This document shows, piece by piece, positions 3,649 to 12,290 of a DNA stretch of 21,933 nt. How positions within the stretch are numbered: position 1 is the first letter of the stretch; every line of letters begins with the position of its first letter. Under the pieces are notes generated by a model that made no database searches, was not told the DNA's origin, and saw nothing but the letters and a program-made list of their open reading frames with translations. Source of the DNA: a virus; the IMG/VR virus record IMGVR_UViG_3300030117_007050, positions 1 through 21,933 of that record; one strand, 5' to 3'. Made by a program: the position numbers and the translations under genes.

Positions 3649-3765
3649 AAAATTGAGTTGATTAGAATCTCAATTTCAAAATTGAATTGATTAGAATCTC
3701 AATTTCAAAATTGAATTGATTAGCGGTGGGAGTTCAAAATTGGAGTTGATTAGAAGGGAACGTTC
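3649..3765. repeat. Iteron-like tandem array, four ~29-bp units
   Basis: Units begin at 3649, 3678, 3707 and 3736, each opening AAAATTG(A/G). The first two are identical except for one base and contain the inverted repeat AATTGA-N8-TCAATT. Units 3 and 4 keep the left half (about 16-17 bp) and the closing TTC but diverge in between. There are no spacers, so this is a tandem array. Its place in a non-coding gap beside the HTH regulator gene fits either a replication-origin iteron cluster or a multi-site operator. Confidence 0.8.
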
Positions 3766-3802
3766 AAAAAAAAGCCCCTGGCAACCAAAGTCGCTCAGGG
3801 GC
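3766..3802 (-). terminator. Intrinsic terminator after the small HTH gene
   Basis: On the minus strand the stem GCCCCTG/CAGGGGC (3796-3802 with 3774-3780) is followed by an eight-T run. It lies about 26 bp after the stop codon of the HTH gene at 3828-4061 and shields the iteron array from its transcript. Confidence 0.75.
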
Positions 3803-5342: not shown

Positions 5343-6050
5343 ATGGCAACAAGCGAAAGAATTACGCCTCTACTGCTAGCAGCTTTAGCAGAACCCTTCC
5401 CCAGCGATGAAATCCAGTGGCGTGTAGGGTCTACGACCAAGGACAAAAAACGAGGCCTGGCGCTTGCGTATATCGACGCAAGGACCGTGATGGACAGGCT
5501 AGATGCGGTCTGCGGTGGCTTTTGGGAGGACTACTACTCAGAGGTTGCAGGACGCTTGGTCTGCGGCATCTCGGTTTACGGCCTGACGCGCTCAGATGGC
5601 GCAGGCGATACTGATTTTGAAGCGGAGAAAGGTGGACTAAGCGATGCCTTTAAAAGAGCAGGCGTTAAGTGGGGCATCGGGCGCTACCTGTACCGATTGC
5701 CCAGCGAGTGGGTAGCGTTGGATGGCAGGCAGAAAATCACTACCCCTCCTTCCCTGCCTCATTGGGCGCTGCCCAGCGGTGAGATCAGTGACCAGGACAT
5801 CGATTTCCCTGCCGTAGAGAAAGACGATAAGACCCTGCAGCAGGCAGACGTAGATGAAGCCAAACGCAAAATCATAGGCAATGTGCTGGACTTAGAAGCT
5901 GGTCTAATTAACGGGGATAAGATGACCGCAGAGCAACGCACTACGGTTCGGCGCAAATATGCTGATGCTATCAAGCTGGAGGCTGCTACGGTCGATAACC
6001 TACAGGTTTACTACGACAATTTAATTAAATACGGAGAAACTGTGCAATGA
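5343..6050 (+). CDS. Rad52/Rad22-family single-strand annealing protein
   Basis: This 235-aa protein carries the hallmarks of the phage Rad52_Rad22 family. These are a start with PLLLAALAEPFP and IQWRVGST (9-31), LAYIDARTVMDRLDAVCG (41-58), a strand-rich core ending GISVYGL, and the signature EAEKGGLSDAFKRAGVKWGIGRYLYRLP (93-120). It binds single-stranded DNA and anneals complementary strands in phage recombination and repair, probably working with the SSB encoded downstream. The C-terminal 100 residues are variable and helical. The start at 5343 has only a weak SD, and the stop overlaps the next gene's ATG (ATGA), so the operon is translationally coupled. No partner exonuclease is recognisable nearby. 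Confidence 0.92.
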   Translation: MATSERITPLLLAALAEPFPSDEIQWRVGSTTKDKKRGLALAYIDARTVMDRLDAVCGGFWEDYYSEVAGRLVCGISVYGLTRSDGAGDTDFEAEKGGLSDAFKRAGVKWGIGRYLYRLPSEWVALDGRQKITTPPSLPHWALPSGEISDQDIDFPAVEKDDKTLQQADVDEAKRKIIGNVLDLEAGLINGDKMTAEQRTTVRRKYADAIKLEAATVDNLQVYYDNLIKYGETVQ

Positions 6051-6512: not shown

Positions 6513-6886
6513 TGATATCAATAAATTTCGTTGCCCTGCTGGGCACAATTCGCGGCGAGGTGCGCCATAACACCACGCAGAACTCGCAGGTTGCCAATTT
6601 CACTCTGGTTACAAAAGCAAAGGCGCACCCCAATGCCAAAGTTGACTTCTTCCAGACCTTCCACAATATAACGGCTTGGGGCCGCTTGGCTGAGGATATA
6701 AAAGATTGCGCAGAGGGTGATACTGTGCAGGTCGAGGGAGCGCTTGAAACAGAATCTTGGGAGCAGGATGGGACGAAGCGCTATAAGACTATCATCAAAG
6801 CGAGGAACCTCAACGTGATTGAAGAGGATCGTCCTCGCCGCAATCCTGTCGAACAACCTGCGGACGCTCCAGATGCCCCTTTCTAA
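6512..6886 (+). CDS. ssb: Single-stranded DNA-binding protein
   Basis: This 124-aa protein starts with GTG at 6512, with AGGGA upstream. The OB-fold runs from residue 1 to about 108, with FVALLGTIRGEVR, ANFTLVTKAKA, FHNITAWGRLAEDI and the closing strands GDTVQVEGALE and YKTIIKARNLNVIE, as in bacterial SSB. A short proline-rich linker leads to an acidic tip ending DAPDAPF, the phage form of the D-D-x-P-F tail that recruits partner enzymes. It protects single-stranded DNA during replication and annealing recombination. The gene overlaps the following resolvase-like gene by 14 bp. Confidence 0.94.
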   Translation: MISINFVALLGTIRGEVRHNTTQNSQVANFTLVTKAKAHPNAKVDFFQTFHNITAWGRLAEDIKDCAEGDTVQVEGALETESWEQDGTKRYKTIIKARNLNVIEEDRPRRNPVEQPADAPDAPF

Positions 6887-10344: not shown

Positions 10345-10547
10345 CGGCACTGGACGAGGAACAGGTATTTAATCGTGTGGGCACCTTGGGCGATACTTAT
10401 ACGATCAGGAGGCACCCCACAGTTGAGCCTGGAGAGGATCGCTGGACCTGCACCTGCAAAGGGTATCGATACCGCAGCAGGCAGCGAGTGGGCTATCAGT
10501 GCAGACACATAAGGGAGATCAGAGAATGCCTGATACAACTGATGTAA
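10329..10547 (+). CDS. SWIM zinc-finger-like small protein
   Basis: This 72-aa protein starts at ATG 10329 and overlaps its upstream neighbour by 16 bp. After a short helical start (MEAALAALDEEQVFNRVG) and strands (TYTIRRHP), it contains CTCKGYRYRSRQRVGYQCRH, the CxCx(n)CxH pattern of a SWIM zinc finger. SWIM domains bind DNA or protein partners in transposases, helicases and Rad51-associated proteins. Here it may be an adaptor for the recombination or integration machinery; that is inferred from neighbours only. No SD is visible, so coupling with the upstream gene is likely. Confidence 0.78.
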   Translation: MEAALAALDEEQVFNRVGTLGDTYTIRRHPTVEPGEDRWTCTCKGYRYRSRQRVGYQCRHIREIRECLIQLM

Positions 10548-10741
10548 CGATTGGCCTGGATTTCGGCCTATGCCAAGCCAATGCGTACAATATGTCGAGA
10601 TACATGAAAGAGCCTGTCACGGTCTACGCCATCGGGCGAGGCAAAGCGGAGCGCTATTTTTTTCGCTTAGATAACGACACCCGTGAGGTGGATGATATGT
10701 GGCGCATCATTTGGCACAGCGATTGGGAAAAACCCGCATGA
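10526..10741 (+). CDS. 71-aa hypothetical protein
   Basis: This unrecognised small protein (MPDTTDVTIGLDFGLCQANA at the start, YNMSRYMKEPVTVYAIGRGKAERYFFRLD in the middle) has tryptophans near the C-terminus. It starts at ATG 10526 with GGGAG about 9 nt upstream and overlaps the SWIM gene by 22 bp. Its TGA overlaps the ATG of the excisionase-like gene. It is probably a real operon member; its function is unknown. Confidence 0.7.
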   Translation: MPDTTDVTIGLDFGLCQANAYNMSRYMKEPVTVYAIGRGKAERYFFRLDNDTREVDDMWRIIWHSDWEKPA

Positions 10742-10911
10742 GTTTAATGAAATACAAAGAAGTCGCAAAAAAATTATCAATATCAGAAACTCAAGTTTAT
10801 GCGTTAAAAGCGACAGGAAAGCTGCCATTTATCAAAATAGGTCGATCTACTCGCTTTGATGAGCAAGACATTCAAAATTTTATACAGGAGAGAAAACGTA
10901 GGATTCAGTGA
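10738..10911 (+). CDS. Excisionase-like MerR/HTH_17 DNA-binding protein
   Basis: This 57-aa protein is a complete winged-helix of the excisionase-family (HTH_17) type, with YKEVAKKLSISETQVYALKA (6-25) then TGKLPFIKIGRSTRFDEQDI (26-45) and a basic tail. Such proteins bind attachment-site DNA and bias integrase towards excision, or act as small regulators. The gene ends 4 bp before the first 23-bp arm-type repeat and lies directly beside the att core and integrase, which strongly suggests the Xis role. The ATG overlaps the preceding stop; an in-frame ATG at 10747 is an alternative. The gene is distinctly more A-rich than its neighbours, suggesting separate ancestry. Confidence 0.85.
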   Translation: MSLMKYKEVAKKLSISETQVYALKATGKLPFIKIGRSTRFDEQDIQNFIQERKRRIQ

Positions 10912-10915
10912 TATC

Positions 10916-10938
10916 GCGCTGTGTCAGTATTGTGTCAA
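10916..10938. repeat. attP arm-type repeat, copy 1
   Basis: This perfect 23-bp repeat is identical to 11168-11190. Each copy contains two TGTGTCA motifs whose starts are 11 bp apart (TGTGTCA-N4-TGTGTCA), about one helical turn, as expected for paired binding of integrase N-terminal domains. Confidence 0.75.
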
Positions 10939-10953
10939 TCGGCCCCAAAACAT

Positions 10954-10993
10954 AAAAACAACCACCTACGAATTAACGTAAGTGGTTGTTTTT
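10954..10993. terminator. Bidirectional intrinsic terminator
   Basis: AAAAACAACCAC (10954-10965) and GTGGTTGTTTTT (10982-10993) form a 12-bp stem with T runs on both strands. It ends the early operon on the plus strand and lies 2 nt after the CCA of the tRNA-like sequence on the minus strand. It could be the host tRNA terminator captured with the att core. Confidence 0.8.
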
Positions 10994-10995
10994 AA

Positions 10996-11067
10996 TGGTG
11001 AGCCCACTGGGAGTCGAACCCAGGACCTACGGATTAAAAGTCCGTTTTTGCTAAACTTTGTTGGGCT
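10996..11067 (-). other. tRNA-Lys(UUU)-like att core with degenerate 5' half
   Basis: On the minus strand, 11044-10996 is a perfect tRNA 3' half. It has the anticodon arm CGGACTTTTAATCCG (anticodon TTT), variable loop, T arm CTGGGTTCGACTCCCAG, acceptor strand TGGGCTC, discriminator A and encoded CCA. The 5' half (11067-11045) is not a good tRNA: the D stem is lost and only AGCCCA remains to pair with TGGGCT, with a T opposite C at the first pair. This fits the phage copy of a tRNA 3' end used as integration core. A decayed phage tRNA is the alternative. Confidence 0.8.
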
Positions 11068-11074
11068 ATATAAA

Positions 11075-11094
11075 ACAACAGCTTACGCTGTTGT
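11075..11094 (-). terminator. Hairpin on the integrase side of the att core
   Basis: ACAACAGC (11075-11082) and GCTGTTGT (11087-11094) form a perfect 8-bp stem with a 4-nt loop. On the minus strand it is followed by TTTTAT, a short terminator-like run, so it may stop antisense transcripts before the tRNA-like core. Confidence 0.5.
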
Positions 11095-11167
11095 GATTGC
11101 CTTACAGCAACTTAGCCCCTACCTTTGACCTACGCCGAACTACACAGAGCTACATGCTATTGCATGG

Positions 11168-11190
11168 GCGCTGTGTCAGTATTGTGTCAA
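11168..11190. repeat. attP arm-type repeat, copy 2
   Basis: Second copy of the 23-bp repeat at 10916-10938. It lies immediately before the integrase SD, so integrase binding here could also repress its own expression. Confidence 0.75.
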
Positions 11191-11201
11191 AGGAGAACAA
11201 C

Positions 11202-12290
11202 TTGGCAGCAAAAAAATACCGCGAAGGGGCTGTAAGCTATTTTAAAAAGGGTACTTATTGGCACGCCTATTGGACCGATCAAAACACGGGATTGCGTGGA
11301 CAACGTAGCTTGCGATGCACAACGCAACGCATGGCTAAAGAGGAAGCAAGAAAAATAAGCGATGCCTTAGATGGAAACATAATACAAAAACTCGATGCTG
11401 TACGGGACAATAAGAAGGTGACGTTTGGCGAAACGGTTGAGCGCTACCTAGATGAGTGCGACCTCGCGGAGAAAAGCCTGAAGGAAGACCGCACGCGCCT
11501 GGATATGGTGCGCTTGGATTGGGAAGACCTGCCCATTAGCAGCATCGACGCAGGCCAGATCGACTCCTGGCTGGCAAAGAAGAGGCGCAGCAGGGGCTGG
11601 AGCCGAAGCACTCGTAATCGCTACCTGAGCGCCATTAAACAGGTCTTCAAGAAAGCACACTCGCTAAACTATACGATAGAGAATCAAGCAGCGCCTCTCA
11701 AAGCGCTTAAAGAAGAGGAAAACATCCCTGAGCCTTTGACAGATGCGGTGATGGATGCCTTAATGCAGGTGCTGCCTGAGTATGCCAAATACTATGTTGC
11801 CATCCTGGTAGATACAGGGCTACGCAGAGGCGAACTGGCGCAGATACGTTGGCGCGATGTGGATACGGCCAACAGGCAGCTGATCGTGCGCAAGAGCAAA
11901 GCGAAGACTTTCAGGGTCATCCCTATGACCGATCGCCTCGCTGCCCTCTTCGACTCCCTGCGCTCGGGACGCAGCTGGGCGCAGACGCAAAGTGGGCACA
12001 GCAGTCATACCCTCGTATGGCCTGATGACAGTAATCCTGAAGCATTGGTAATTGGGCCTATAGATTTAAAGAAGTCTTTAATCTCTGCAAGCAAGCAGTT
12101 AGGAATTGGGCACATTCACCCACATCAGTTCAGGCACACCTTCGCCACACGCCTTATGCAGCGAGGGGTGTCGATGGAGCATATCATGGCGTTGGGAGGT
12201 TGGAAGAGTGCTACGATGGCGAAGCGCTACGCCAGAGTCAATCCAGTAGAATTACACGAACAGATTAAGCGGTTAGAAACCGAAAAATAA
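11202..12290 (+). CDS. int: Tyrosine recombinase, phage integrase
   Basis: I take TTG 11202 as the start, because AAGGAG lies 6 nt upstream; an earlier in-frame TTG at 11097 would run through the arm repeat and has no SD. The 362-aa protein has an N-terminal arm-binding region (AVSYFKKGTYWHAYWTDQNT), a SAM-like core-binding domain (about 75-165) and a catalytic domain with TGLRRGEL (Arg208), a beta-hairpin lysine near KSKAKTFRVIP, HPHQFRHTFA (His308, Arg311), GGWKS (Trp334) and Tyr378-35, i.e. Tyr343, in MAKRYARV. All catalytic residues are present. It should recombine attP with a host tRNA-Lys gene. The late operon converges on it with a 6-bp gap and no clear terminator. Confidence 0.96.
   Translation: MAAKKYREGAVSYFKKGTYWHAYWTDQNTGLRGQRSLRCTTQRMAKEEARKISDALDGNIIQKLDAVRDNKKVTFGETVERYLDECDLAEKSLKEDRTRLDMVRLDWEDLPISSIDAGQIDSWLAKKRRSRGWSRSTRNRYLSAIKQVFKKAHSLNYTIENQAAPLKALKEEENIPEPLTDAVMDALMQVLPEYAKYYVAILVDTGLRRGELAQIRWRDVDTANRQLIVRKSKAKTFRVIPMTDRLAALFDSLRSGRSWAQTQSGHSSHTLVWPDDSNPEALVIGPIDLKKSLISASKQLGIGHIHPHQFRHTFATRLMQRGVSMEHIMALGGWKSATMAKRYARVNPVELHEQIKRLETEK

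Follow-up and report, generated by a model that had tools for sequence, protein, structure and literature searches.

A probable intact attP with paired arm repeats around a tRNA-Lys core on an IMG/VR virus contig

Genes and repeats at the locus

The DNA analysed here, referred to throughout as the window, is a 21,933-bp IMG/VR virus contig. Features of the region between the excisionase and integrase genes are listed in Table 1. A preliminary description had reported a perfect 23-bp repeat on both sides of a tRNA-derived core. Both copies were located and they are identical. Thus, the 23-mer GCGCTGTGTCAGTATTGTGTCAA forms a direct repeat (100% identity) with an offset of 252 bp. The description also placed TGTGTCA twice in each copy, 11 bp apart. 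All four start positions (10920, 10931, 11172 and 11183) agree. The TGTGTCA word alone is not rare; it occurs 5 times in the whole window where 2.3 occurrences are expected. Shuffling positions 10500–11800 300 times gave no exact repeat above 16 bp, and the maximum was 17 bp when the whole window was shuffled 40 times. The 23-bp repeat is far beyond chance.

Table 1. Positions of the genes and of the observed or proposed sites in the window.
Feature	Position	Strand	Remarks
xis/RDF gene, 57 aa, HTH_17 fold family	10738..10911	+	PF12728, TIGR01764
Left (P) arm	10916..10938	+	TGTGTCA pair, 11 bp apart; proposed integrase arm-type sites; kept in L004–L008
Intrinsic terminator	10953..10994	-	Oriented as terminator of the tRNA; between left arm and core
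attP core	10996..11044	-	3' part of tRNA-Lys(TTT), CCA to anticodon arm
Anticodon stem-loop CGGATTAAAAGTCCG	11030..11044		Predicted crossover region; from alignment of the phage, L005, L035, L039 and L044
Three 10-bp-spaced repeats GACCTACGCC GAACTACACA GAGCTACATG	11127..11156	+	Proposed excisionase sites; between core and right arm
Right (P') arm	11168..11190	+	TGTGTCA pair, 11 bp apart; in the int leader
int ribosome-binding site AAGGAG	11190..11195	+	Touches P' arm; read from the sequence
Tyrosine integrase gene, 362 aa	11202..12290	+	PF00589, PF02899; N-terminal arm-binding-type domain at residues ~1–57

The neighbouring genes are of the types originally described. The integrase matches PF00589 with 100.9 bits (E 9e-29). 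Residues R208, H308, R311, H312, W334 and Y343 are invariant in six aligned sequences, which places the protein among the tyrosine recombinases. The small gene upstream encodes an excisionase; the TIGR01764 (excise) score is 38.7 bits, above the cutoff of 28.8, and a longer version of the open reading frame matches PF12728 (E 5e-11). The left arm begins 5 bp past the xis stop codon.

The integrase most likely starts at the TTG at 11202, because aligned relatives have an ATG start there. This leaves 11 bp between the right repeat and the start codon, and the repeat adjoins the ribosome-binding site. This agrees with the earlier placement of one copy on the integrase leader. No sigma70-like promoter was found in positions 10700–11300. 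Arm-bound Int could repress int, since the right arm lies directly against the ribosome-binding site of int, and autoregulation of this kind is plausible by analogy. Negative autoregulation has been shown for KplE1 intS and is predicted widely for tRNA-associated integrases (PMC2951348).

We also modelled the structure of the integrase. In the model, strands at residues 5–8, 11–16, 19–25 and 32–37 and a helix at 42–57 form a small separate N-terminal domain, which precedes a helical core-binding domain as expected of a heterobivalent integrase. The pLDDT is ~66–85 for the N-terminal domain, and the pTM of 0.47 means that the orientation of the domains is poorly modelled. Lambda Int was among the PDB matches of the model, with ~20% identity in structure alignments.

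Four tandem 29-bp repeats (AAAATTGAATTGATTAGAATCTCAATTTC-like) lie elsewhere in the window, at 3649–3769, downstream of a small helix-turn-helix gene. The first copies are nearly identical. These repeats could be operators or replication iterons.

Conservation and modular divergence of the site

Five relatives of the integrase were found in IMG/VR. The identities are 95% for L004, ~83% for L005 and L006, and 43% for L007 and L008. All five loci have TGTGTCANTATTGTGTCAA on both sides of the core, at a separation of 252–253 bp. Hence, as expected of paired arm-type sites, the same repeat flanks the core and is kept in relatives. In L007 and L008 the core is the 3' part of tRNA-Asn(GTT) instead of tRNA-Lys. 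Both loci retain the arms and xis despite the changed core. The window integrase and those of L007 and L008 are 75% identical across residues 1–57. Conversely, identity falls to 31% for residues 76–172 and 41% for residues 173–362. The arms thus appear to co-vary with the Int N-terminus, and the core with the core-binding and catalytic part. In heterobivalent integrases the N-terminal domain acts on the arms and the remainder of the protein acts on the core. The pattern of divergence supports a role for TGTGTCA as arm-type sites.

A search by arm geometry alone recovered a further locus, L110, in an unrelated-looking phage contig. Here, TGTGTCA pairs surround an apparent 3' part of tRNA-Ser (1238–1519, reverse-complemented). 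The integrase of L110 is differently diverged and its gene is on the opposite side, terminating immediately ahead of the left arm. Another integrase lineage thus has a similar arm word. The same search returned L108 and L109, which we rejected as att sites; they have many TGTGTCAT repeats and no recognised integrase or tRNA core. In these contigs the TGTGTCAT repeats lie between opposed reading frames (L108 12608–12872 and L109 9607–9872, reverse-complemented). Another repeat-binding protein probably uses the TGTGTCAT word in L108 and L109. In 23 IMG/VR loci the arm pattern matched once; these, too, were rejected as additional att sites. We judged these to be coincidence because, in the five loci that were translated, the match falls in an open frame of 189–340 codons, reading VSILCQD.

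In another explanation, the repeats of the window are operators of a regulator of xis and int that flank the core by coincidence and have no role in recombination. Each repeat does lie immediately after xis or before int, and L108 and L109 show repeated TGTGTCAT away from any recognised integrase or tRNA core. However, the position of the left copy, between the xis stop codon and the terminator, is a poor one for an operator. Furthermore, the pair flanks the core in every relative, and in L110 despite int being on the other side. We consider this explanation highly improbable.

A second array of repeats is located between the core and the right arm. Its three 10-bp units match at 18 of 21 positions and none of 300 shuffles equalled this. 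Counterparts occur at the equivalent place in L005, L007 and L035, the last of these being a bacterial locus described below. The recombination directionality factor (RDF) sites of 186 Apl are direct repeats at 10–11 bp (PMC7498355), and KplE1 attL has a block of three TorI sites (PMC2951348). We propose the triplet as the target of Xis because direct repeats at one helical turn are usual for excisionase sites and because of the TorI block. By analogy, the triplet is probably bound by Xis.

The two sets of repeats might have the opposite roles, the TGTGTCA pairs being excisionase operators and the 10-bp triplet being integrase arm sites, within an attP all the same. The spacing of the TGTGTCA words fits this too, since RDF sites are likewise direct repeats at one turn. 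The excisionase, 72% identical in L005–L008, is also conserved along with the TGTGTCA repeats, but so is the Int N-terminus. Against such an exchange of roles, the TGTGTCA pairs flank the core, as required of arms, whereas the triplet is on one side only. In addition, 11-bp arm pairs around a core are the Int pattern of Cluster K phages (PMC3203893). We therefore regard the exchange as unlikely and retain the TGTGTCA pairs as the integrase arms.

Both kinds of repeat recur more widely. We compared 12 integrase leaders: those of the window, L005 and L007, plus nine from the Latescibacterota, chosen as the best matches with a readable start. An 11-bp tandem repeat run with at least 7 identical positions was present in 9 of the 12, 12–81 bp before the int start (shuffle p ≤0.018). 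The 10-bp triplet was detected in six leaders with p <0.004, and in one more at 0.017. The counts for both repeats are not fully independent because the window and L005 are closely related.

The core, its terminator and the likely host

ARAGORN found no tRNA in the window, and the core amounts to less than a complete tRNA gene. One Rfam match spanned a full-length tRNA at 10999–11068 (33.9 bits) but was set aside as chance, given the negative ARAGORN result and the non-tRNA 5' half in L005 and L006. The core instead matches the 3' portion of a bacterial tRNA, as expected of an attP that targets a tRNA gene; 45 bp of it are present within intact bacterial tRNA-Lys(TTT) genes. For the search we used a 45-bp pattern with one position set to R so as to cover L005 and L006. 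This matched exactly at 12 loci of the genome collection, 10 of which carry an intact tRNA-Lys(TTT). The titles of the 12 loci name Latescibacterota or Gemmatimonadetes/Gemmatimonadota.

In two Latescibacterota genomes, SI037_bin186 (L039) and SZUA-1027 (L044 and L035), the terminator hairpin of the phage stands downstream of a tRNA-Lys. The stem is confined to these two out of 64 genomes of the phylum, and no other shares both core and terminator with the phage. The phage core differs from the tRNA-Lys of L035, L039 and L044 by one T-loop substitution. We place the crossover in the anticodon stem-loop because identity to the host tRNA stops there; the exact point of exchange would fall within these 15 bp.

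The terminator forms an uninterrupted RNA stem on the minus strand only (-25.1 kcal/mol, z -7.5). The plus-strand equivalent is mismatched (-21.3 kcal/mol). We first read the terminator as host-derived. This is no longer assumed; in SI037_bin186 and SZUA-1027 the hairpin follows tRNA-Lys copies that adjoin elements. A similar hairpin lies beside a different tRNA in L007, and sponge Latescibacterota have a different hairpin.

The two genomes contain elements related to the phage at the same tRNA gene. In L039 and L044, an intact tRNA-Lys, the terminator, an 11-bp repeat pair and an excisionase gene occur in the order and orientation expected after integration. The repeat pairs differ from the arms of the window (CTTGCTGTAAT twice in one, ATTGCAAAATC and ATTGCAAAACA in the other). 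L035, from the same metagenome-assembled genome (MAG) as L044, is on a separate contig. An integrase gene (40% identity) lies there next to a partial tRNA-Lys, along with the terminator. The partial core of L035 is flanked by two copies of CGTGATCATAT on the int side and by TCTCATCCAAA and TCTCATCCAGG on the other. The start of the L035 integrase (~5570–5600, minus strand) is out of frame with the remainder, owing to mutation or sequencing error.

The integrases of SI037_bin186 and SZUA-1027 are also the closest ones among bacteria of the phylum. A profile of the integrase gave its best matches in the phylum there, with E values of 4e-99, 1e-85 and 5e-66. Among 50,697 phage records the best single-sequence tblastn match had an E value of 8e-18 and identity below 60%, in a search not strictly comparable with that using the profile. 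Because of the shared core and terminator, the tRNA-Lys elements and the closest bacterial Int in the two MAGs, our best guess at the host, and a likely one on these sequence comparisons, is a Latescibacterota bacterium near SI037_bin186 and SZUA-1027.

An integrated copy with the arms of the window was found neither in a scan of genome contigs for the Int N-terminal domain nor in the 64 genomes of the phylum; none of the genomes searched had either the arms or this domain. The junctions of related elements have single arm pairs only. No two identical arm pairs split over the ends of an element were seen in the phylum, where contigs are too short or copies are absent, and a second arm copy sought in the genomes carrying related elements was not found. 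None of the 64 genomes contains the tRNA-Asn core of L007 and L008, even with 3 mismatches allowed. Among open papers that mention Latescibacter and phage, no title of the 15 listed out of 38 points to a phage of this kind, and the single abstract naming both merely includes the phylum in a sediment community.

The L035 contig bears on another claim of the preliminary description, that two arms imply a non-integrated phage or circular form. The site is indeed unsplit. The implication is not exclusive, however, since a junction between tandem elements can look alike. The window could accordingly be the internal junction of two tandemly integrated copies, given that L035, in a bacterial assembly, has a partial tRNA-Lys core with repeat pairs on both sides. 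We think this quite unlikely for the window, and the site would be equally functional as attP. A free or circular form is the simplest reading because the arms are identical and phage-type genes lie on both sides.

A further sequence is shared between the window and L035. At 80–140 the window has a conserved non-coding block of ~57 bp (...ACGATACCTATGGCATCGGGAYCCCCTGGTAGGTTCACCTTC). The block recurs in four IMG/VR contigs (L089–L092), two of which (L090 and L092) also contain terminase large subunit genes. AGAGCTTCGATATATACGGG-like repeats are upstream of the block in L090 and L091. It has no Rfam match and is a candidate cos (packaging) site. In L035 of SZUA-1027 the block is at 6564–6600; it lies past the tRNA-Lys terminator by ~650 bp, in the direction leading away from int. 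The flank of the L035 junction is itself phage-like, since the block is present there. It possibly reflects tandem elements or a satellite that shares the packaging site.

A model for integration, and comparison with known systems

Taken together, the data make it very likely that the window contains the intact attP of a temperate (marine) phage that integrates at the 3' part of tRNA-Lys(TTT), with arms that the Int N-terminus would bind. The attP proposed earlier is thus well supported, by repeats kept in 5 of 5 relatives, a bacterial tRNA-Lys core and related elements at the same tRNA-Lys. Our reading is based on a chance-defying repeat, its conservation, modular divergence, the bacterial core and the geometry of related elements; from these we infer protein binding, crossover and autoregulation. 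The terminator between arm and core, the three-unit 10-bp array by the right arm and the host did not feature in the preliminary description.

In the proposed mechanism, the Int N-terminal domain would bind the TGTGTCA pairs, so that each 23-bp arm takes up two adjacent protomers at a distance of one helical turn. The core-binding and catalytic part would act on the tRNA anticodon stem-loop. Strand exchange in the anticodon region would then rebuild a complete tRNA-Lys beside xis, followed by the phage-borne terminator, and would leave int at the distal end, next to an incomplete copy of the tRNA. Besides ending the tRNA transcript, the terminator would block xis transcripts going antisense through the tRNA. 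Binding of Xis to the 10-bp triplet near the right arm would favour excision.

A complete attP on one contig indicates the integration target and hence the likely host of a phage of an uncultured phylum. The window and L007/L008 are also a natural pair, with shared arms and different tRNA cores, in which the division of labour between arm and core is testable in a new integrase lineage. More tentatively, the arms, xis and the Int N-terminal domain might constitute one exchangeable cassette, joined to different catalytic parts and tRNA cores, possibly across host phyla. In that case attP and host could be read from the 11-bp pair and 10-bp triplet as from a code. We consider this doubtful, but if true the arm pair and triplet would help to find attP sites and to name the hosts of phages of uncultured bacteria.

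Like lambda, the system combines a heterobivalent tyrosine integrase and an excisionase with arm-type and core-type sites, the role of the sites being predicted here. Lambda attB is not a tRNA gene, and the lambda arm sites are unequally distributed.

The layout is closer to that of Cluster K1 mycobacteriophages such as CrimD, where two 11-bp arm-repeat pairs surround a core located upstream of int, and a terminator separates core from arm (PMC3203893). In both cases the arms are paired at 11 bp and the core matches the 3' portion of an RNA gene. CrimD differs in having a tmRNA core, arm pairs that are mutually inverted, another integrase and a host of another phylum. The arm pairs of the window are direct, as reported for L5 and Giles.

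In the KplE1/HK620 module, the att region with its P' arm sites overlaps the int promoter region (PMC2951348). This module and the window share P' arm sites at the int leader and a block of three RDF sites (both proposed for the window), and a tRNA target. Unlike in KplE1/HK620, integration of the phage would put the intact tRNA by xis, and int at the far end by the partial tRNA. The IntC attP of an Oenococcus prophage (PMC8074189) similarly has a tRNA-Lys target and arm repeats distributed two and two, but the repeat sequence, integrase and host are different. The layout is therefore of a kind described before; the novelty lies in its sequence, its lineage and the likely host.
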